Below are positions 1,662-11,285 of a stretch of DNA of 11,945 nucleotides, in pieces; position 1 is the stretch's first letter, and every line of letters begins with the position of its first letter. Below the pieces are notes generated by a model, which made no database searches, was not told the DNA's origin, and saw nothing but the letters and a program-made list of their open reading frames with translations. The stretch is from Pseudomonadota bacterium (GTDB lineage Bacteria > Desulfobacterota > Syntrophia > Syntrophales > JADFWA01): assembly GCA_030610915.1 (NCBI GenBank), contig JAUWQS010000022.1:1-11945 (forward strand), in the 5' to 3' direction. The position numbers and the translations under genes were made by a program.

Positions 1662-3554
1662 TTAATAGCTTATGGAAAGGCCGCCATAATAGAATGTTGG
1701 ATCTACATATACGACTCTTTTGTCAAAGATGTTATTAACGCCGGCAAATAGCTTAAGATGCCGGGAAAATTCTTTAGATAGGTAGCAGTGGAAAAGGGTA
1801 TAGTCATCTTCTGTTCCGTCTGCATAGTAACGCTCTCCGATGTAATCCATTCTAATGTTAGCCCGCAGTCCAAATTCAGGGTACTGATAACCTAATTTCA
1901 GATGCCCCTTATAGTCCGGCTGTCCTTCCAGGTCTTTACCTGTTTCCTTGTCTTCCGTTTTTAGATAAGTCAAATTTCCTGAGATTGCGAAATTTAAAGG
2001 CAGGTTTAAACCACTTTCCAGCTCCACACCTTCCATAGTGGCCTCAGCAATATTTTGGTACCTGTAATAGTCTTTCTTTTTCTTTCCCTTACCTGTTGAT
2101 TTATAATAGACGGCCTCAATAAGGTCTTCTATTTCATTTCTGAAACCTGTAATTCTTCCCCAGAATTTCTTGTATTCCCCCTCAATACCTATTTCATAAC
2201 TCTCAGATTTCTCAGGATCTAAATCAGAGTTAGGTTCATATATCCATTTCCCTCTTTTTCTATATGAAGTAACAAAAAGCTCGGATATGCTCGGCGCGCG
2301 AAAACCTGTGCCGTAAGAGGTTTTTATTCTGAGATTATCAAAAATGTTGTAGATCAACGAAGCACGTGGCGTCCATTCAGAACCAAATTCGGAATGTTCA
2401 TCAAATCTCACACCAAAAACCAGATATAAGGAGTTAAAAACCTGATATTCATCCTGAAGATAAATACTAAAATTATCTACATCATCATCACGACCTGTTA
2501 TATCCTCCCTGCTTTCTTTTCTAAATTCAGAGCCCACAGTGAGAACGTGTTTGTCAAAAAATATCCCTGTGAACCGGCCCTCCACCTGATCCAGTTTACG
2601 TTCTGCATTTTCCTCTGCACTGACTTTTGCGGTTGGTGAAAATTCTATGTCATTTTCATGTTCAGAATGATAGGCCCTGAGCATAAGATTAAAAACGGGA
2701 TTTGGTCTGGCATTGTATTGCAAGAAATAGCTGTGCCTCTTGTCCTCGGCGATTCTTTCCCTGTCAAGGTTTTGAAAAAATCTCAGTCCTTTTCTATCCA
2801 TATCACTATATTCAAATCCTGCCAGAAGGGTATGGTTATCATCCAGATCAAAAGAGAAACGTCCGGCTATCGAACCCAGCTCTTCGTCATCTCCATCATC
2901 AGGGGTTACGCCATCTCTATCCCATTCATTTTTTCCCCGGTAGCCCCCTGCAAGGAGGAATCCAAAACGTCCTAAAGTATCCCCAACATATGCCCTGCCA
3001 AGGGGCTCCTCGCCTTCTCCATAGGTACTTATGCCGTATTGAAAAGTGGCCCCCATTGCCAACTCCCTGGGAGGCGCTTTTGTAATGATATTGACAACAC
3101 CCCCTATAGCATCGCTTCCATAAAGGGCGGAGCTTGGGCCTCTGACTACTTCAATACGCTCGATCATATCAACGGAAATCTGGTTTACATCGAGAAAATC
3201 CTTGTAGCCCATAGAAAGCCTTCTTCCGTCAATTAGCACCAGGGTGTGCTTGTTTCCCGTGCCTCGTATACTGGGTCTCCTTACTCTTCCGGTTGTTCCT
3301 GTAACTATAAGACCTGTGGCCTTTTCCAATGCCTCTGCCACGGTTTGAGCGCCCATATCTTCTATCTCTTGAGAGGTGATCACTTCAATAGAACCAGGGG
3401 CATCCTCTATCTCTTTCTCTGTCATTGTAGCAGTGACAACTATTTTTTCCATTTCTACTGCTGGAACTTCAGCCAGCCTTTCCCGAGCCTCTGCTACTGA
3501 GGCAAAGGTAAAAATCAAGACCAACAAACACAATACAAACTTAAACCTCTTCAT
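1662..3554 (-). CDS. TonB-dependent outer-membrane receptor 1
   Basis: A 630-residue receptor: signal peptide 1-23 (cleavage after VAEA), TonB-box-like EKIVVTATM at 36-44, plug domain about 48-160 with the classic IERIEVVRGPSSALYGSDAIGGVVNIITK-type region (131-159), then a beta-barrel with typical GFRAPSISELF and LFAGVNNIFDKR motifs. It ends in Tyr rather than the more usual Phe. Such receptors import metal chelates or cobalamin, driven by TonB. The ligand cannot be read from sequence. The ATG at 3554 is chosen over the GTG just before it because GGAGG is then seven bases away and the start matches receptor 2 exactly. The signal peptide is nearly the same as that of receptor 2, although the rest diverges. 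It follows a structured leader RNA and precedes the FmdE-like gene. Confidence 0.93.
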   Translation of the reverse strand: MKRFKFVLCLLVLIFTFASVAEARERLAEVPAVEMEKIVVTATMTEKEIEDAPGSIEVITSQEIEDMGAQTVAEALEKATGLIVTGTTGRVRRPSIRGTGNKHTLVLIDGRRLSMGYKDFLDVNQISVDMIERIEVVRGPSSALYGSDAIGGVVNIITKAPPRELAMGATFQYGISTYGEGEEPLGRAYVGDTLGRFGFLLAGGYRGKNEWDRDGVTPDDGDDEELGSIAGRFSFDLDDNHTLLAGFEYSDMDRKGLRFFQNLDRERIAEDKRHSYFLQYNARPNPVFNLMLRAYHSEHENDIEFSPTAKVSAEENAERKLDQVEGRFTGIFFDKHVLTVGSEFRKESREDITGRDDDVDNFSIYLQDEYQVFNSLYLVFGVRFDEHSEFGSEWTPRASLIYNIFDNLRIKTSYGTGFRAPSISELFVTSYRKRGKWIYEPNSDLDPEKSESYEIGIEGEYKKFWGRITGFRNEIEDLIEAVYYKSTGKGKKKKDYYRYQNIAEATMEGVELESGLNLPLNFAISGNLTYLKTEDKETGKDLEGQPDYKGHLKLGYQYPEFGLRANIRMDYIGERYYADGTEDDYTLFHCYLSKEFSRHLKLFAGVNNIFDKRVVYVDPTFYYGGLSISY

Positions 3555-3582
3555 CACATATCCTCCTCTCCATCATGCAAGA

Positions 3583-3713
3583 ATTGACAGTAACCCCCGG
3601 CTCTGGTAGAAAAGAGAACTAAGGGGCGGCCCGGCTGTAACTTCAGCCAGGCCTGCTTCCCAGGGGAAAGACGGCCTTGTTCTTTGCGGGATGAAATCCG
3701 CCTTTCCCTGCAC
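3583..3713 (-). ncRNA. Structured leader RNA, copy 1, upstream of receptor 1
   Basis: A 131-base 5' leader that aligns with 8715-8846 with about 15 substitutions and one 1-base indel (hand alignment). Three hairpins can be drawn in the transcript. Stem 1 pairs 3698-3710 with 3661-3674 around a 23-base loop. Stem 2 pairs 3644-3656 with 3626-3637 around loop AAGTTA. Stem 3 pairs roughly 3615-3625 with 3594-3604 around a pyrimidine-rich loop. Several differences from copy 2 are G-C to G-U changes that keep pairing. It lies about 30-160 bases before the start codon. I do not recognise a known riboswitch class; B12-box and TPP landmarks are absent. A cis-regulatory function is inferred from position and conservation. 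Confidence 0.7.
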
Positions 3714-3733
3714 CTATTCAACTATAGTTTTCC

Positions 3734-3776: not shown

Positions 3777-4766
3777 CTAATTTCTCTTTTTGTAGATAGC
3801 GTCGGTCCACTGCCGCAAAATAGCCGGATACTCGATCACACTTGAATCTCCATAAAAGGGCAGGCTATAGATTGCCAGGTTTTTGATGGCCGTTACATCG
3901 GCCATGGCCGGATATTTCTTTACTGCTGCAGCAAGAGCCTTTTGTACTGCAAAGGCATTCCCTGTCATGACAATAACATCGGGGTTGGCCTTTGCCAGGC
4001 CATTCAGTTTTCTAATCAAGAAGTGGCCTTTATCCGCTTTTTTGTTTGGAGATTTGAGAACATCACCTATATTCATACAACCGAGTGGATCGAGCAGGAA
4101 GCGATCGGAATAGCCCCCGGGCATCTCGACTCTTAGAAACGTTTTCCCCGTCGCACTCTGGTAAGTGCCATTGATAATAACCACCCGTTTCAACAGTTTT
4201 TCCCCAGGCAAGGCATTTTTAGCCTTTGCCAGCGCTTTGTTATAGCGATCGATCAGGGCATCGGCTTTAGATTGACATCCCAGCAAATTGGCCGTCTGTC
4301 GTATGGCTGACTCCAAGCCCCGGGAGAAATCTACATACTCGATGGTCAAGCCCTTGCCTTCAAGCAAAGGGACAACATTGGCTGGCTTGACCTCGGGTCT
4401 GTAAATACAGAAATTGGGATGCTTTTCGATGATGATTCGTTTGATGCCTCGTTCCTTTGCCGTGTCAGGAACGATGTTCGGTATTCTGCCAACTATGCAT
4501 TTTGGGCAACCTAACACCTGCGAAGCGTTTAAGAGCTGTTTGCACATGGGCCACATCGAACAGCGCACAGACATGGCTTCCGGGAGAACGCCCAGATTAA
4601 AGGCGACATCTACAAGCCGGTCGCCAACCATAATAACTTTGATTTTCTCCGGGGCTATTTTTCGCTTTGCTTCAGCCGTTTGGAAGGATAATAGAACCAG
4701 CCCTGTGACCATGATGAACAAAAGGGCCAAAGTCTTTAAAGTGGCTTGTTTATTAACGCTTTTCAT
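3777..4766 (-). CDS. Cysteine-rich periplasmic binding protein (BtuF/FepB-like, class III fold)
   Basis: A 329-residue protein with an N-terminal signal peptide (about 1-33, cleavage near AEA-KR). The mature part looks like a two-lobed class III substrate-binding protein: KIKVIMVGDRLVDVAFNLG at the start, a middle RYNKALAKAKN helix, and NPDVIVMTGN (261-270) in the second lobe. Such proteins usually deliver siderophores, haem, cobalamin or metals to an ABC transporter, but no permease or ATPase gene is in this window. Seven cysteines are present in the mature protein (69, 75, 87, 90, 120, 164, 230), including CSMWPMC at 69-75 and CPKC at 87-90, near where the ligand cleft begins in the family. 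This suggests direct metal or haem-related binding or disulfides. The start has an AAAGGAG site. Confidence 0.8.
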   Translation of the reverse strand: MKSVNKQATLKTLALLFIMVTGLVLLSFQTAEAKRKIAPEKIKVIMVGDRLVDVAFNLGVLPEAMSVRCSMWPMCKQLLNASQVLGCPKCIVGRIPNIVPDTAKERGIKRIIIEKHPNFCIYRPEVKPANVVPLLEGKGLTIEYVDFSRGLESAIRQTANLLGCQSKADALIDRYNKALAKAKNALPGEKLLKRVVIINGTYQSATGKTFLRVEMPGGYSDRFLLDPLGCMNIGDVLKSPNKKADKGHFLIRKLNGLAKANPDVIVMTGNAFAVQKALAAAVKKYPAMADVTAIKNLAIYSLPFYGDSSVIEYPAILRQWTDAIYKKRN

Positions 4767-4975: not shown

Positions 4976-5830
4976 TTAGAGCCCAGAATTCCTACGACGT
5001 AAGGCCATATGCAAGGCTGCCCCGCTCATGAATAATATGCCCCCGAGTACCAAGGGGAAAGTATAATACACGCGATTGATACCAAGCTTTAGAGCAATTA
5101 ATTTTCTTTTCCGCCAATCGCGTCGTTCAACAATTTCTCCTGGCTTTGGCTTGGTATATTCAGCATATATGCGATAGAAATATCCATCGTGCCACCCGGA
5201 TCCCCAGGGAGGTTTGGGTATAATGAAAGGTTCTGAATCAGGTACCATGGGTCTGAGTACCACACTGGGACGGCTCGGTCCTCCTCGAGGGTCTTTTTTT
5301 GACATAACAATTTTTTCGCAACACAAAGAATAAGGAAGTTTTTCATGCGAAATGATCTGCCCGGGCCGGAGTTCTATACCTGAGATATTAAAGCCTGTCG
5401 TGGCGGGAATGACATGGGTGAACAAGAGTATGATATATGAGGCATGCATTAACGCCACTGCAAGCTTCCTGAACACTCTTACCTTGGTTTCAGGGACTCC
5501 TTTTTTCCACTCCCAAAACAGGCGCCACAGCTGAGCCATGTCAGATAATGCACACATAGTAAGATTTATCCCAAGTATAAGCAGGAAAACGATAAGCACT
5601 ATAAGCCACGCTCGGACCACAGGATAACTATGACCACCTGGGCCAGTCAACCACCGGATCAGGATTTCTCCATCCAGGCTGTTACTTACACCGGGATATA
5701 CACCTCCCTTGTTGAATATCAGACCGATGATAATTACCACAGAGATAAGCATACATATCCACCAAAACAAGCGACGAGAGCCCAGGGCTGCCCAGACACG
5801 CTTTCTAAATGAGTTTTTTTCTGAGATCAT
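4976..5830 (-). CDS. ResB/CcsB-like membrane protein (System II cytochrome c maturation family)
   Basis: A 284-residue protein with four hydrophobic segments near residues 20-40, 72-95, 122-145 and 253-275, and one periplasmic domain of about 105 residues between the last two. This layout and the GFNISGIELRPGQ stretch after the third segment match ResB, which works with CcsA to move haem out and attach it to apocytochromes. His129, His139 and His274 lie in or next to membrane segments, and Cys170-Cys171 lie in the loop. It is shorter than standard ResB proteins. The start at 5830 is preferred over the ATG at 5854: it gives an ATGA overlap with the CcsA-like gene and a GGGGGTGAT site at good spacing. 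Haem handling is an inference from family membership. Confidence 0.72.
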   Translation of the reverse strand: MISEKNSFRKRVWAALGSRRLFWWICMLISVVIIIGLIFNKGGVYPGVSNSLDGEILIRWLTGPGGHSYPVVRAWLIVLIVFLLILGINLTMCALSDMAQLWRLFWEWKKGVPETKVRVFRKLAVALMHASYIILLFTHVIPATTGFNISGIELRPGQIISHEKLPYSLCCEKIVMSKKDPRGGPSRPSVVLRPMVPDSEPFIIPKPPWGSGWHDGYFYRIYAEYTKPKPGEIVERRDWRKRKLIALKLGINRVYYTFPLVLGGILFMSGAALHMALRRRNSGL

Positions 5831-6633
5831 AATGATATCACCCCCTTCATCCATGTGAATATCTGTCTGCCATAATCAAAGTAGAGATACCACCATATAA
5901 ATATGGCATATCCAGCTATTCCCATGATAGGGCCCGTTCGTTGAGAAAGCTTTGGGATCCAGCGTACATGCAACATAGCGGCATAAAATATCCAGATGAG
6001 GGCTGAAGAGAAATGCATTGGCCTCCAGAGCCAGAAATTGCCAAAACCGAGGTGCGCCCATATACCACCAGCCACCTGAGCTGCTGAGAACAGGATAAAT
6101 CCCCACAGTGCAGCCGAATACATCATTTGTTCCAACTCATTGTTCGGCATCATGTCTGAATCGCCTCCCCTTCTTAAAAGCCATGTAAGACTCAGACTGA
6201 AACAGAAAGCAAAAGCAATGAAAGAGCCATCTTTCAGGTAAAACCACATCATAGGCGCTGGTTTAAGAAAGAAGGATGGTGTCCCAATTTCGCTGGGTAA
6301 CCTGAGTGGTCCACCTACCAGAGCTATAAACAAAATTCCGGCTAACATAATTGCTGTCAGCAAATTATCCCTTAACTTAGGCAGCATTAACATGATTACC
6401 AGAGCAAGCCCCCATGTTCGCGGAAAGAAATTTTGGTCCCTCTTATGCAAGGGTATGTATCCAAGAATTGCAACATATATGATCATAGAAATACTATGAG
6501 TCACAAATGCAACAATAAGAATCATGCGCACAAGGCTATTGTCTGACCCCCTGCTGCTAAGAAGTAATAACAGGGCGGCCAGAGCATACAGCCCCATGCT
6601 CACATAGAAAAAATGGTGAGCAAGTAATTCCAT
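5827..6633 (-). CDS. Divergent CcsA/CcmC-family membrane protein with a degenerate WWD motif
   Basis: A 268-residue polytopic protein with about seven to eight hydrophobic segments. Family landmarks in order: His46 in FVTHSISMIIYVAILGYIPL, matching a membrane histidine followed by the G-x-x-P loop of CcsA; then PMMWFYLKD (127-135); then GGIWAHLGFGNFWLWRPMH and the rest of a WWD-like block ending in His222. CcsA proteins bind haem at the WWD motif with two flanking periplasmic histidines. Here the usual WDPKE reads WRPMH (203-207), so the Asp is lost, and the first flanking His appears replaced by Lys134/Asp135, while the second (His222) is kept. The ATG has a TAGGAGGAG site that overlaps the receptor 2 stop. 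A role with the ResB-like partner is strongly suggested; classical haem ligation may be altered. Confidence 0.7.
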   Translation of the reverse strand: MELLAHHFFYVSMGLYALAALLLLLSSRGSDNSLVRMILIVAFVTHSISMIIYVAILGYIPLHKRDQNFFPRTWGLALVIMLMLPKLRDNLLTAIMLAGILFIALVGGPLRLPSEIGTPSFFLKPAPMMWFYLKDGSFIAFAFCFSLSLTWLLRRGGDSDMMPNNELEQMMYSAALWGFILFSAAQVAGGIWAHLGFGNFWLWRPMHFSSALIWIFYAAMLHVRWIPKLSQRTGPIMGIAGYAIFIWWYLYFDYGRQIFTWMKGVISL

Positions 6634-6650: not shown

Positions 6651-8681
6651 CTAAAATCTCAAATTGACTCCACCAAAGACCTCAGTCCCGGGCATTTCAT
6701 CATATTCTTCATATTTCTTATCAAAGATGTTTTCTACCTCAAGAAAAGCCTCCAAATTTTTGGTGATATCTTTGGTAATCTTGGCATGTGCCAGAAAATA
6801 ACCATTAAGTTTTTCTGTATTGTTTGAATCTGTATATCTTTCCCCCACATACTCACCCCTCAGATTTATGCCCAGGCCAAAACCGGGAACTCTGTAATCA
6901 AGTACGAAGTTAGCCATATGTTCTGGGTCGTATATAAGTTCTTTACCTGTTTCTCTATCCTCTGTATCCAGAAAATAATATCCCAATCTTCCAGATAGGT
7001 TATCTGTAAACTGGATGATAACTTCGAACTCTCCACCCTGGGTGCGAACTTTTCCTATGTTTGTGATCAGATATACTGGTTTGCCTTTATGAGTCTCTGT
7101 TGTTTTAATCGTTCCTACCATATCTTCAAGATCATTCCTGAACAGGGACAGAGTGGTTAACACTTTTTTATGAATCTGGTATTCCACACCTGTCTGGTAA
7201 GACCAGGAAGTTTCCGGTTTCAGATCTGGATCCGACCTCGACCATTTTCCCCACTTCTTTTTAAGGCCAGGGAAAATCTTACATCCTTTAGCGGTCTTAA
7301 ATCCTCTTTCTGCGGAGGCCCTCAATTTTAGATTCTCGGTTAATTTATAAAGTACTCCAGCCTGTGGAAAAATATCACTGCCCCACCAAGTATGATCGAC
7401 CCCGCGGGCGCCTAAAAGTAAGGTGAACGGGCTGAGGTCTATTTCATCCTGAAAATATACATTGTGAGTATACTGATCTTCACCCCAATTATCAGAATAA
7501 TCCCCATGGAATTGATACCCTAAAGTTGCCAAGTGTCTATCCTTAATCAGCCGGTTGTAATATGTCTCCCCTTCATAAATATTCAAATCCAATCCCCGTT
7601 CCGGCAATATTAACCTCAACCAAGAGCCCTTGACCACTAACTTGGAAACTTCATCAGGATGCCATTCGGTTATAGAATTAAGCGAATATTTTCGTTGCTT
7701 CCATCCAGGAGAATCCTGATTATAAAAGCTTGTTTTCAATACCGTTTTTAGCTCCGGGGTAAACTCATATTCTAAACTTCCCCAGACATCATCATAGGTA
7801 AATTCATCGTCGGGATCGATTCCATGGTATTTGTTATGACTATAGTCAATCTGATACCCGAATTTATCTATCTTACTTCCGCCGCCAGCATGATGAACTT
7901 GTTTTCCATGAGAACCAAAGCCGGTTGATGCAGAAAATGTGGGTTTTTCAGGGGCAGACTTGGTAATAACATGAATTACTCCCCCCGATGTCTCGCTGCC
8001 ACTGAGAACAGAAGACGCTCCTTTTTTTATCTCTATTCTTTCAATCATCTCTATAGGATAGCGATTGAATATAGGCATACGCCCCGGGCACTTGTATTGT
8101 TTTTGGCCATCTATCAAAAGCGAGGTGTGATCAATGTTCAAGCCATGGATCTTTACGCCTTTTCCTAATTGATACAGACCAGGAACCATCCTTAATGCCT
8201 CGGCCAAATTATGTATATTAGCTGCCTCAAGTTCCTCTCTTGTAATTACAGTTATGCCAATAGGCACATCACCCAGAGAATGCGCTGTCTTGGTGGCAGT
8301 GACCACTGTCTTTTGCAGTTCTATTGCCGGCCTTTCAGTTACTTTCTCCTCTTCCACTTTCTGTAATACTACTGCACCTTTTGCATTAATTGTATAACTC
8401 AAACCAGTTCCGGATAGAATCTTTTCCAAGGCTTGGGCTGGGGTATTCGTCCCTTGGATACCATTAGTCTTTTTTTCTTCTACTATTTCATCCGGGTATT
8501 CCAGTTTGATTCCTGTAACCCTTTCATAGGCATTCAAACCTAACTTCAGGGCCTGAGCCTCAATGTCAAACCTTTGACTCTCCGCTTTCATCTGATAAGA
8601 AAGATCCGACTGCGCCTGCGCCACAGAAACACAGGTAAAAATCAAGATCAATAAACGCAATACAAGTTTAAAACTTTTCAT
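6651..8681 (-). CDS. TonB-dependent outer-membrane receptor 2 with an STN domain
   Basis: A 676-residue receptor: signal peptide 1-23, an STN (secretin/TonB short N-terminal) domain at about 36-107 (FDIEAQALKLGLNAY through GAVVLQK), TonB box LQKTVVTAT at 122-130, plug about 135-242, and a barrel ending VNLRF with the usual terminal Phe. STN domains normally signal to a FecR-type anti-sigma factor, yet no FecR or sigma-factor gene is in the window. Two cysteines stand out in the mature protein: Cys198 in the plug (KCPGRM) and Cys467 in the barrel (KGCKIF). The ATG follows GGAGGGAGGAG. The gene is 17 bases from the CcsA-like gene and follows a structured leader RNA, so receptor, CcsA-like, ResB-like, small ORF and binding protein form one operon. 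The ligand is unknown. Confidence 0.93.
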   Translation of the reverse strand: MKSFKLVLRLLILIFTCVSVAQAQSDLSYQMKAESQRFDIEAQALKLGLNAYERVTGIKLEYPDEIVEEKKTNGIQGTNTPAQALEKILSGTGLSYTINAKGAVVLQKVEEEKVTERPAIELQKTVVTATKTAHSLGDVPIGITVITREELEAANIHNLAEALRMVPGLYQLGKGVKIHGLNIDHTSLLIDGQKQYKCPGRMPIFNRYPIEMIERIEIKKGASSVLSGSETSGGVIHVITKSAPEKPTFSASTGFGSHGKQVHHAGGGSKIDKFGYQIDYSHNKYHGIDPDDEFTYDDVWGSLEYEFTPELKTVLKTSFYNQDSPGWKQRKYSLNSITEWHPDEVSKLVVKGSWLRLILPERGLDLNIYEGETYYNRLIKDRHLATLGYQFHGDYSDNWGEDQYTHNVYFQDEIDLSPFTLLLGARGVDHTWWGSDIFPQAGVLYKLTENLKLRASAERGFKTAKGCKIFPGLKKKWGKWSRSDPDLKPETSWSYQTGVEYQIHKKVLTTLSLFRNDLEDMVGTIKTTETHKGKPVYLITNIGKVRTQGGEFEVIIQFTDNLSGRLGYYFLDTEDRETGKELIYDPEHMANFVLDYRVPGFGLGINLRGEYVGERYTDSNNTEKLNGYFLAHAKITKDITKNLEAFLEVENIFDKKYEEYDEMPGTEVFGGVNLRF

Positions 8682-8714
8682 TTCAGTGCTCCTCCCTCCA
8701 TTATCTATATGACA

Positions 8715-8846
8715 ATTGACAGTAACCCTCAGTTCTGGTAGAAAGAAGAACTGAGGGGCAGCCCGGCTGTAAATTCAGCCAGGCCTGCTTCCTCAGGGGA
8801 AAGGCGGTCTTGCTCTTTGCAGGATGGAAGCCGCCTTTCCCTGCAC
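8715..8846 (-). ncRNA. Structured leader RNA, copy 2, upstream of receptor 2
   Basis: Homologue of the leader at 3583-3713. Stem 1 is CAGGGAAAGGCGG (8831-8843) with CCGCCTTTCCCCTG (8794-8807). Stem 2 is GCAGGCCTGGCTG (8776-8788) with CAGCCGGGCTGC (8758-8769), one bulged G, loop AATTTA. Stem 3 is CCCTCAGTTCT (8747-8757) with AGAACTGAGGG (8726-8736), eleven perfect pairs. No U-run follows stem 3, so it is not a classic terminator. A competing pairing, CTGAGG (8791-8796) with CCTCAG (8751-8756), would lengthen stem 2 and disrupt stems 1 and 3. Function is inferred; I recognise no known class. Confidence 0.72.
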
Positions 8847-8873
8847 GTAACTACTCACGTATTTAGAGTTTTC

Positions 8874-8910: not shown

Positions 8911-10161
8911 TCACCTCCTTTGCTTGGAATATTCCGAAAGTGAAGCTATCTGTTTCAGCATCTCTTTCGCTGTTTTTCGTTGTTTGGGATGACGCGCGGC
9001 TTTTTGAAATGCCTTTTTTGCCACTCCTTTTTTATCTCTCTGCAAGGCACAATATCCCATCATAAGATGTGCCTGCCCACTTTTATGACCAAGGCGGGCA
9101 CTTTGACTAAATGCCCGATATGCTTCGTTCCATTTCTCTTCTTCATAGAGCACTTGCCCCAGCATAAAACAGAGCTTAGATGTCTTGGTTTTCTTTAGTG
9201 CCCACTTCAGTGTCTCCTCAGCCTTTGCCGGCCTGTGGGCGGCAAGATAAGCAGATGCCAATTTTCCATAGTCGGCGGGTTTTGTATCGTCTTTCAGGAT
9301 AACAGCCTGTTCGTAATACTGCGCTGCCTTTTCCGGCACCCCGATAGCGTTGTTTAAATCACCAAGAAGCATGACATCCATCCGGTTAATGGTGGTCAGG
9401 TAGGAGCGTATGGTCAGCGCGGTCACAGCCTTTTTGTAGTCGTTTTGCCGCAGATAGAGATGCGCCATAAATTTCCACCAACGGGGGTTGTCGCCGTCTT
9501 TTGCGAGCAGGAGATTTACTGCGCGAAAGGCCTCGTCCTCCAGGTGAAGTTCCATGCATACCTGCAAAAACGCCTCCAGCCATTCAATCTTTGGAGTTCC
9601 CGCTTCGCCGGAGATGAGGTATCTCAAGTGGGGCAGAGCCCTGTTATGCTCTTCAGCAAGAATATAAGATATCGCGGCATAGTAAAGGTTCGATGTTTCA
9701 CTGCCCTGCGCAGCGTTGTGTGCCTTCAACAGGCAATCACCCGCCTTTTCATATCGCTTTTGATCAAAGTAGATCCTGCCCATATTCTGCCAGGCATAAG
9801 AAAATTCCGGATACATCTTAACCGTCAACCGGTAATGGAAAAGTGCTTCTTTATCCTTACCCGACAGGGAGAAGGCATTGGCCAGTGTAAATTCCACAAG
9901 ATAATGATTCCTTTTGGGATATTTTTTGAGGAACGTCTGTAAGACCTGCACCGCCTTGTCATAGTCTTTACCCTCTATCGCCTTCTGAGCGGCATAAACA
10001 ACCCTTTGAACTCCCGGCGTCAATTTTGGAGCTTCACTTTCAGCCCACGCCTGACAGAGTGAAGCTGAAAGCTGAAAGCTCAAAGCTAAAAGCAAGAAGC
10101 TGAAAACTGAAAGCAACAGACCTCTCCGTTTTAGTCTTGAGCTTGTTTGCTTTGACCTCAT
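8911..10161 (-). CDS. Secreted tetratricopeptide-repeat protein of the TonB module
   Basis: A 416-residue protein with a signal peptide (basic start RLKRRG, hydrophobic core 15-35, cleavage after AWA at about residue 40) and then TPR-type helix pairs almost to the end, for example YDKAVQVLQTFLKKYPKRNHY (from about 67), KEALFHYRLTVKMYPEFSYAWQNMGRIYFDQKRYEKA, and several further units up to about residue 395. TPR domains bind partner proteins. Genes of this kind lie downstream of tonB in TonB2-type clusters, and related TPR proteins are thought to assist TonB transport at the periplasmic side. The start overlaps the tonB stop by ATGA and has a GGAGGGAAG site. The signal-peptide core is encoded by a 7-bp tandem repeat, and the last codons are duplicated at 3734-3775. 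TPR identity is sure; the partner is not known. Confidence 0.88.
   Translation of the reverse strand: MRSKQTSSRLKRRGLLLSVFSFLLLALSFQLSASLCQAWAESEAPKLTPGVQRVVYAAQKAIEGKDYDKAVQVLQTFLKKYPKRNHYLVEFTLANAFSLSGKDKEALFHYRLTVKMYPEFSYAWQNMGRIYFDQKRYEKAGDCLLKAHNAAQGSETSNLYYAAISYILAEEHNRALPHLRYLISGEAGTPKIEWLEAFLQVCMELHLEDEAFRAVNLLLAKDGDNPRWWKFMAHLYLRQNDYKKAVTALTIRSYLTTINRMDVMLLGDLNNAIGVPEKAAQYYEQAVILKDDTKPADYGKLASAYLAAHRPAKAEETLKWALKKTKTSKLCFMLGQVLYEEEKWNEAYRAFSQSARLGHKSGQAHLMMGYCALQRDKKGVAKKAFQKAARHPKQRKTAKEMLKQIASLSEYSKQRR
10058..10113 (-). repeat. Eight degenerate 7-bp tandem units inside the TPR gene's signal-peptide coding region
   Basis: On the coding strand the consensus unit is CTTTCAG, with eight consecutive units covering 56 bases. 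Because 7 is not a multiple of 3, three units give a 7-residue peptide period: LSVFSFL, LLALSFQ, LSASL. The repeat covers residues 17-35, the hydrophobic core of the signal peptide. Confidence 0.8.
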
Positions 10162-10832
10162 CTTCCCTCCATAGTGAATTCAATCGTTGTAACTACTAAT
10201 GTGGCTACCGGATGCTCGGCAATCTTCCCCGGTGAAAACCTCCAGGAGGGAAGCGCTCTTAGCACACTGTCCTCAAATATCCCGGGGGGGTCGGCTCCAA
10301 TAATCTTCACCTGGCTTACATGACCATATTCATCCACCACAAAGCTGACATCGACCTTCCCTGCAATATTTAATCGCCTGGCGCGATAAGGATAAAATGG
10401 TTTCATTTTAAAAACCGGCACAGGCACCTGGTCAACATCACCCTGATCATAATAGAAACCGCTGATATCCGGCGCAGCTACAGGCATTCCCGTTGCCAGT
10501 TTTGGGTTGATCTCAAAGCTCAGTCTTGGCAGATCCATCTTTATCTCCTGCCTTTTGGGAAGATGCCGCTTCATCGTTACCTTCGGAAGCGGTTCGGGAG
10601 GCGGTTTCTTTTCCGGCAGCTTTTCCTCCTCATGCGGCGGCGGGTTTTCTCTTATGAGCCTTACAAGATTGACAGGCACAATCGTCTCAATGTCTTCTTT
10701 GCCGGTATTGCCCTGCCCAACCAATGGAAGCAGGGAAAATAAAAAGATATTTATCAGAAAGGACAAGAGTATGACGCAGCAGTTTGCCGGCGTAAGGAAT
10801 CGGCCTAAGCCATTAGGTGATTGTTTCTTCAT
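10158..10832 (-). CDS. tonB: TonB energy-transducing protein
   Basis: A 224-residue protein anchored by one N-terminal membrane segment (about 17-37), followed by a proline/glutamate/lysine-rich spacer (about 62-92, ENPPPHEEEKLPEKKPPPEP) and a C-terminal TonB domain (about 143-221) with the PFYPYRARRLNIAGKVDVSF stretch and the SWRFSPG motif (196-202). TonB uses the proton-driven ExbB/ExbD motor to pull on the TonB boxes of outer-membrane receptors; two such receptors are encoded downstream. The ATG has only a weak GGGAAAAG site, and the space before it is filled by a 7-bp repeat, so coupling from exbD may matter. It overlaps the TPR gene by four bases. The short spacer and gene order resemble Vibrio TonB2-type systems. 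Confidence 0.93.
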   Translation of the reverse strand: MKKQSPNGLGRFLTPANCCVILLSFLINIFLFSLLPLVGQGNTGKEDIETIVPVNLVRLIRENPPPHEEEKLPEKKPPPEPLPKVTMKRHLPKRQEIKMDLPRLSFEINPKLATGMPVAAPDISGFYYDQGDVDQVPVPVFKMKPFYPYRARRLNIAGKVDVSFVVDEYGHVSQVKIIGADPPGIFEDSVLRALPSWRFSPGKIAEHPVATLVVTTIEFTMEGR

Positions 10833-10848
10833 CTTTTCCCATTCAAAA

Positions 10849-10876
10849 TTCGATGTTGGACGTTCGATGTTCGATG
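10849..10876 (-). repeat. Four 7-bp tandem units between exbD and tonB
   Basis: On the plus strand TTCGATG, TTGGACG, TTCGATG, TTCGATG follow each other without gaps (coding-strand unit CATCGAA). The repeat starts one base after the exbD stop codon and fills most of the 45-base gap before tonB. Degenerate 7-mers of this kind are reported as short tandemly repeated repetitive sequences in cyanobacteria and occur in other bacteria. Confidence 0.75.
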
Positions 10877-10877
10877 T

Positions 10878-11285
10878 TTATTCTTTTCGGGTCGCAATGC
10901 TTACATTTTTTGCCCCGGCCAGACGGCATTGATCCATCACTCGAACCGTCAGTCCTGTGCGGCTGGCTTTGTCCGCTACCACCACCACCTGCCCTTCGGG
11001 GTTCTCTGCAAGGCATCTCTCTACGTGGGCGCGCACGCTTCTGATATCGATCCGTTTTCTGTCTAAATAAATCTGACCATCTTTGGAAACACCGATCAGG
11101 ATGTTCCCCTTCTCCTTGAGCGTTGCCGTTGAAGCGGTGGGACGCTGGACATCGATGCCTGTCTCCTTCACAAAACTGGTCGTCACCATAAAGAAGATCA
11201 AGAGCAAAAAGACAAGGTCGATCAGCGGCGAGATATTGATTCCTGCCGTCTCGTGACTGCGGCGGGCCTGCCGTATGTTGATCAT
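10878..11285 (-). CDS. exbD: ExbD biopolymer transport protein
   Basis: A 135-residue protein with the standard ExbD/TolR plan: short cytoplasmic N-terminus, one membrane helix INISPLIDLVFLLLIFFMVT (16-35) containing the essential proton-carrying Asp (D23), and a small periplasmic domain ending VMDQCRLAGAKNVSIATR. In the family ExbD dimers sit inside an ExbB pentamer and use proton flow to drive TonB. The ATG has an AAAGGAT site. It lies 94 bases after exbB, a gap occupied by short repeats, and 45 bases before tonB. Length and motifs are normal for the family. Confidence 0.95.
   Translation of the reverse strand: MINIRQARRSHETAGINISPLIDLVFLLLIFFMVTTSFVKETGIDVQRPTASTATLKEKGNILIGVSKDGQIYLDRKRIDIRSVRAHVERCLAENPEGQVVVVADKASRTGLTVRVMDQCRLAGAKNVSIATRKE

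Follow-up and report, generated by a model that had tools for sequence, protein, structure and literature searches.

An undescribed structured leader RNA of TonB-dependent receptor mRNAs, most likely a translational riboswitch

The window, the whole stretch of 11,945 nucleotides that was analysed, carries two copies of a leader RNA on its minus strand, at 8711-8847 (copy 2) and 3583-3714 (copy 1), each 5' of a TonB-dependent receptor gene. There is good support for seeing in it an undescribed, structured mRNA leader of these receptors. The leader appears to define an undescribed cis-regulatory RNA family, most likely a translational riboswitch that represses uptake, the nutrient probably being nickel or cobalt or a metal-bearing tetrapyrrole; the probability of this reading is put at about 0.6. 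In the proposed off state, a pyrimidine-rich loop, L3, would pair with the Shine-Dalgarno (SD) sequence and block ribosomes. A ligand bound by a core made of loop L1, loop L3 and the tail would set the balance, and uptake would stop once the imported nutrient suffices. The ligand is expected to turn expression off because the controlled genes are uptake genes.

The leader RNA is complementary to the strand as printed, since the receptor reading frames lie on the minus strand (6651-8681 and 1662-3557). It consists of a stem, P1, with the conserved loop L1, a variable hairpin, P2, a stem, P3, with a UANC loop, L3, and a GUCAA tail. The features of the window, all on the minus strand, are as follows.

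8711-8847, minus: leader RNA copy 2, before the receptor at 6651-8681; match to covariance model R3 of 109.9 bits at 8710-8847 (training sequence)
8831-8841, minus: copy 2, 5' arm of stem P1, GGGAAAGGCGG (fold and covariation)
8808-8830, minus: copy 2, loop L1 with the conserved GCAAAG core (alignment)
8797-8807, minus: copy 2, 3' arm of stem P1 (fold and covariation)
8758-8788, minus: copy 2, variable hairpin P2 (fold)
8747-8757, minus: copy 2, 5' arm of stem P3 (covariation)
8737-8746, minus: copy 2, loop L3, UCUUUCUACC, complementary to its own SD (L3:SD comparison)
8726-8736, minus: copy 2, 3' arm of stem P3 (covariation)
8716-8720, minus: copy 2, conserved tail GUCAA (member conservation)
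8689-8699, minus: SD, GGAGGGAGGAG, of the receptor at 6651-8681 (start codon 8679-8681)
6651-8681, minus: TonB-dependent receptor (STN, Plug and beta-barrel; Pfam)
3583-3714, minus: leader RNA copy 1, before the receptor at 1662-3557; R3 match of 98.9 bits at 3578-3714 (training sequence)
3698-3708, minus: copy 1, 5' arm of stem P1, with the 3' arm at 3664-3674 (fold)
3626-3656, minus: copy 1, variable hairpin P2 (fold)
3594-3625, minus: copy 1, stem P3, with loop L3 at 3605-3614, CUUUUCUACC (L3:SD comparison)
3584-3588, minus: copy 1, conserved tail GUCAA (position checked)
3561-3571, minus: SD, GGAGAGGAGGA, of the receptor at 1662-3557 (ATG 3552-3554)
1662-3557, minus: TonB-dependent receptor (Plug and beta-barrel; Pfam)
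3777-4766, minus: periplasmic binding protein (Peripla_BP_2; Pfam), between the receptors
10158-11285, minus: TonB (10158-10832) and ExbD (10878-11285), same locus (Pfam)

The preliminary description had placed one leader before each receptor and given each three hairpins; both leaders are present where it put them, with P1, P2 and P3, and its hand count of about 15 differences and one indel matches the 15 substitutions and one 1-base indel found over 133 aligned columns (88% identity). The two receptors that follow share 30% identity over 617 residues. Compared with dinucleotide shuffles, the region of copy 2 (8690-8870) folds with a z of -6.2 and that of copy 1 (3560-3730) with a z of -2.8, 1 of 200 shuffles being equally good in the latter case. 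The likeness of the copies falls in the SD region and returns in the first receptor codons, so the 5' ends of both receptor genes probably share a duplication. Such a duplicated 5' end could by itself account for the two window copies; it cannot account for the distant relatives described below. Also between the receptors (4976-6633) lie a CcsA-like cytochrome c assembly protein (5827-6633) and a 292-residue protein with no Pfam match, and an FmdE-family protein (899-1636) lies behind the second receptor.

A receptor search followed by a locus search gave a starting set of 80 loci among the matches listed. One of these (L002, from the MAG Desulfobacterales RS_16_34) carries a leader before each of two receptors, with 76% and 73% identity to copy 2; in the other 79 of the 80 loci among the matches listed, blastn detected none. 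Covariance models were then grown stepwise from 4 (R1), 9 (R2) and 31 sequences (R3), the loci offered to the R3 alignment being those already judged members by the analyst, and were run through genomes without reference to genes. R1 at E<=0.01 matched in 11 of 96 relatives, some of the matches by chance, and R2 at E<=1e-3 in 20 of 389 genomes of the class and 17 of 395 of the phylum. With R3 at E<=1e-4, matches were found in 24/194 genomes of one order, 15/29 of the class of genome G598, 16/198 of the phylum of a Desulfuromonadaceae MAG (many genomes shared with the R2 phylum search), 2/198 of the phylum of a Nitrospirae MAG (Nitrospirota), one of them convincing, and 0/200 of the Marinobacter phylum; searches over more than 40 genomes used stricter filters, by which weak members can be missed. 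One Nitrospirae-phylum genome, G818, carries two leader copies, each in front of a receptor. Among 24 genomes reached via the collected loci, none matched R3 at E<=1e-4, and the 7 that matched at E<=0.01 were all judged chance. Judged chance by eye, with a partial motif or the receptor missing downstream, were L088, L090, L091, L093, L101, L104, L106, L107 and L108, as were L167, L171, L244 and L248, the last being the second Nitrospirae-phylum match. L105 and L127 precede receptors and match only in part; they were excluded from the members.

The R3 matches at E<=1e-4 in the order, G598-class, Desulfuromonadaceae-phylum and Nitrospirae-phylum searches make up 73 distinct places, a place being counted as positive when a receptor frame, recognised by an HMM from receptor alignment A2, lay within 450 nt downstream on the same strand. 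The leader stands directly before a TonB-dependent receptor at 61 of the 73, including one at a contig end (L158) whose receptor was called from its N-terminus with a signal peptide, on likeness to L208. All 19 training sequences among the 73 are positive, as are 42 of the 54 places outside the R3 training set, some of which are close kin of training sequences. In the context loci, which were chosen from matches, 69 of 74 places pass the receptor criterion. The background, from 113 plug-domain genes in the 65.7 Mb of 20 carrier genomes, is about 0.2% of genes at one gene per kb. Relatives thus lie mostly before TonB receptors and not at random sites, as would be expected if the preliminary description was right. 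Among the receptors that follow leaders, median identity is 29%, so that the leader has been kept across unlike receptors.

The 12 receptor-negative places are of several kinds. Four are identical copies in one genome (G083). These class-B-like leaders (L235-L238; class B is taken up below) lie at the edge of a ~3 kb repeat with recombination-like ORFs, and their identity stops ~65-69 nt behind the leader, so that the repeat could place new genes behind it. One (L192) is a reverse-strand echo of a true match, one (L128) lies beside two other leaders, and one (L225) precedes a radical-SAM operon whose last gene encodes a receptor. Another leader-like match (L234:125-3600, genome G059) is followed by genes for a nucleoside-hydrolase-like protein, a tetrapyrrole methylase and a NikL-like protein, and has no adjoining receptor. 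The remaining four (L167, L171, L244 and L248) were taken for chance. Genome G619 has three leaders, not all on one strand, in a ~2.2 kb stretch around receptor genes (L148:7867-10043).

The structure was examined in alignment A8, which has 74 rows fitted to the covariance model. Each of the 22 pairs of P1 and P3 varies on both sides in some sequence, and 89.6% of cells of the modelled pairs do pair vs 45.0-58.5% when the pairs are slid. A phylogeny-aware null was obtained with our own R-scape-like script (not R-scape), by simulating 300 alignments on a FastTree tree with the parsimony changes placed randomly. For this test 3 of the 74 rows were dropped (the reverse-strand echo L218:4312, the partial L148:7867 and the repeat copy L162), and the other 71 were reduced to 69 sequences at 90% identity. 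Eight pairs reached E<0.05, all of them in P1 (five) or P3 (three), with 14 of the 22 modelled pairs short of significance. The covariation on which the preliminary description had made its proposal depend is therefore clear in the homologues, and a conserved, structured 5' leader with compensatory changes, as looked for in a riboswitch, is present. In the 71 of 74 rows used for counts of conservation and of L1 hairpins (bits >29, L3 of 4 or more, L162 omitted), the L1 core pattern is found in 66, an L3 ending in UAN[C/U] in 66, GUCAA in the tail in 57 and CAA in 70. P2 is of variable length, and the fold of its region averages -6.77 vs -5.02 (sd 0.26) in shuffles. A hairpin inside L1, though convincing in single members, is unsupported (48/71 members vs 44.8, sd 3.6, in shuffles).

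The leader belongs to no family at the family cut-off in Rfam 15 (4227 families), as judged by cmscan of the window (E<=10), 15 member loci (E<=1) and 10 context loci (gathering level). A confident match to a known class, which would have refuted the preliminary description, thus did not turn up. The models for the cobalamin riboswitch (RF00174), the NiCo riboswitch and the Moco RNA motif gave no match at these same thresholds in the same three sets. One sub-threshold match overlapped a leader in the window, to a snoRNA model (E 1.9, opposite strand), and one in the member loci, to a lncRNA model (E 0.7, in L092). Matches in the context loci were to a fluoride riboswitch, a tRNA and two group II introns, all outside leaders; the fluoride riboswitch (RF01734, 37.3 bits, L219:7063-7138) shares a contig with a leader-receptor operon. 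A search of titles and abstract starts in the literature found no description of such a leader; most subscription papers lay outside it, so that absence from print is unproven. The word "TonB" is absent from the main texts of PMC11109978, PMC8632094 and PMC2864571.

Leader and receptor are often closely spaced. With start codons placed by our own rule, the distance from leader to start is 14-278 nt in 68 members (median 38), being up to 45 nt in 39, 46-100 nt in 18 and more than 100 nt in 11; the wider spacings count against the riboswitch reading. Placement before related genes (61/73 receptors) and near the start codon (39/68 within 45 nt), a mark of riboswitches, is thus seen here. U-runs after P3 occur in 5 of 71 members, and this rarity favours translational control over termination. 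In the members outside class B, pairing of L3 is stronger with its own SD than with swapped SDs (-10.00 vs -8.86; 0/5000 swaps as good, n=36; a separate run gave -9.58 vs -8.42, 0/2000 swaps, n=39), and after thinning by L3 15/5000 swaps were as good (n=16); relatedness of members can inflate results of these swap tests. Sequence-specific matches are seen in L134 (UUUGUGU with ACACAAA) and, by eye, in L242 (CUCCUUUCUAC with GUAGAAAGGAG). The comparison suggests an SD-blocking L3:SD pseudoknot in the main group.

In class B, the L3 fit to its own SD was no better than to swapped SDs (3991/5000 swaps as good, n=14). There, pairing is seen between P2 (CCUCGGGG) and a stretch like CCCCGAGG farther downstream (own -17.39 vs swapped -15.26, P=0.0004, n=21). 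L207 provides a compensated case, CCUCGGAG with CUCCGAGG; the pairing is weak in L135, L204, L205 and L233. Taken together, the L3:SD pairing of the main group and the P2:downstream pairing of class B seemingly represent two platforms on one core; beside them, no alternative pairing for the on state emerged. Two further pairings were tried and rejected: kissing of L1 with L3, which was attractive on inspection and in which an SD mimic in L1 would compete for L3 (999/5000 swaps as good as own), and pairing of L1 or L3 with the tail, which was not specific in the swap test.

Candidate ligands come from the neighbouring genes, counted on the same strand at 69 leader places (69 of the 74 rows, a two-leader locus counting twice). 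These include TonB (23), ExbB (21), DUF4198 (20), which presumably covers NikK, ExbD (18), ABC ATPase (16), tetrapyrrole methylase (13), TPR (12), NikL-like (9), two periplasmic binding protein groups (9 and 9), CobN (8), FecCD-like permease (7), SBP_bac_5 (6), FmdE (5) and CbiQ (3); the names ExbB and FecCD were assigned by a look at the sequences. One representative each of DUF4198, TP_methylase, CobN, FmdE, SBP_bac_5, Peripla_BP_2 and CbiQ passed the Pfam cut-off. Against NCBIfam, CobN scored 2027 bits (cut-off 1468), while the NikA-like (126.5, cut-off 393), NikL-like (37.4, or 58 in L234, cut-off 100) and CbiQ (63.8, cut-off 111.8) neighbours fell below theirs. The TP_methylase proteins at the 13 places, such as L219:2538-3446 and relatives, stand behind receptors and have signal-peptide-like N-termini; an exported methylase is odd. 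In the available portions of PMC545781 and PMC2667541, nikK and nikL are proposed as extra periplasmic parts of delta-proteobacterial NikMQO importers.

The NikL-like, DUF4198, NikA-like, CbiQ, CobN, FmdE and tetrapyrrole-methylase neighbours point to uptake of nickel or cobalt or of a metal-tetrapyrrole. This company is mixed, with nickel, cobalt, tetrapyrrole and siderophore-like themes and several NCBIfam matches far below cut-offs. Nickel or cobalt is the tentative choice of ligand; a tetrapyrrole or corrinoid is a lesser possibility, and so is some other compound. In the tetrapyrrole or corrinoid case the core would sense cobalamin, heme, siroheme, F430 or the like and not a free metal ion, a somewhat unlikely alternative for which speak the CobN-type proteins and tetrapyrrole methylases (8 and 13 of 69 leader places) and the weak IsdE/BtuF similarity of some binding proteins. 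The CobN-like HmuS strips iron from heme in gut bacteria, according to the part of PMC12583661 available, and this keeps heme and other tetrapyrroles among the candidates. The cobalamin riboswitch model is not matched, as given above, and NikL-, NikA- and DUF4198-type neighbours point to metal ions. Heme, the first ligand reading, from IsdE-like binding-protein and CcsA-like neighbours, was weakened because NikL-, NikA- and CbiQ-like neighbours appeared. The preliminary description had proposed an undescribed riboswitch or protein-binding leader sensing the receptors' ligand; the undescribed structured leader of receptor mRNAs stands, on Rfam, covariation and placement, and as to ligand sensing the gene company only narrows the candidates.

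The leader might instead be bound by a trans-acting partner, a small RNA or a protein such as a metal-responsive RNA-binding protein, that stabilises the L3:SD pairing, the RNA itself binding no small molecule. The conserved L1, L3 and tail would also suit a protein site, and the leader has so far been found in one phylum and one genome of another, as a lineage-specific protein might be. This is rather unlikely in view of the up to five places in the genome with most leaders, before unlike genes, and of two platforms on one core, an arrangement more usual for riboswitches. A constitutive SD-masking hairpin, acting as a fixed brake or thermosensor, could exploit the strong L3:SD complementarity ligand-free, but a brake would need neither the conserved L1, L3 and tail in all subclasses nor a single gene type, and it is considered improbable. 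A recent duplication or functionless mobile repeat, to which the shared first receptor codons of the window copies and the four identical G083 copies at the ~3 kb repeat edge could be ascribed, is contradicted by covariation at every modelled pair, by the tree-based test and by the 61/73 places before receptors; unrelated sites with shared flanks are true of the four G083 places only, not of the other 69 of 73, and the idea is very improbable.

A translational riboswitch repressing uptake can be pursued in a putative host, genome G598, taken as Desulfobacca acetoxidans ASRB2 (= DSM 11109). It has leaders at 127155-127276 and 1415027-1415142. There are 15 plug-domain genes vs these two leaders; it is thus a regulon that carries the leader, and not receptors in general. 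The second leader (L225:8156-15976) is followed by three radical-SAM genes, the first apparently broken, an MFS exporter (EntS similarity of 100 bits, far below the 324 cut-off), a methyltransferase and a TonB receptor; by its genes the operon looks like one for metallophore production. D. acetoxidans is a cultivable environmental sulfate reducer, which makes the question directly testable. More tentatively, the leader may be a new riboswitch class, mainly of Desulfobacterota, sensing nickel/cobalt (or a metal-tetrapyrrole), with one core, two platforms (L3:SD pseudoknot and P2:downstream helix) and a broad metal-scavenging regulon of TonB receptors, NikL/DUF4198 parts, NikA-like and FecBCD-like importers, CobN-type chelatases and the Desulfobacca radical-SAM/exporter/methyltransferase/receptor operon. 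If the riboswitch reading is right, a leader-RNA class absent from Rfam 15 turns uptake receptors off and defines a regulon of them. Finding one ligand would then reveal the substrates of dozens of TonB-dependent receptors and give roles to the adjoining CobN-like, FmdE-like and exported tetrapyrrole-methylase proteins.

Among known systems, the cobalamin riboswitch (RF00174) heads TonB-dependent receptor and cobalt-uptake genes and often controls translation. The new leader also precedes TonB-dependent receptor genes; it differs in having no match to that model and no B12 box recognisable by eye. The NiCo (czcD) riboswitch class was described for efflux genes. It would have the same ligand, if the nickel/cobalt reading is right, whereas the new leader is without an Rfam match and precedes uptake receptors. 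The Moco RNA motif, in the portion of PMC2408646 available, is likewise a leader class with a metal cofactor link that includes delta-proteobacteria; the new leader has no Rfam match and heads other genes. The orphan leader candidates from 50 bacterial genomes, such as the gcsH motif of Desulfobacteraceae, are similar in coming from related bacteria and, in the available part of PMC11109978, belong to genes other than those behind the new leader.
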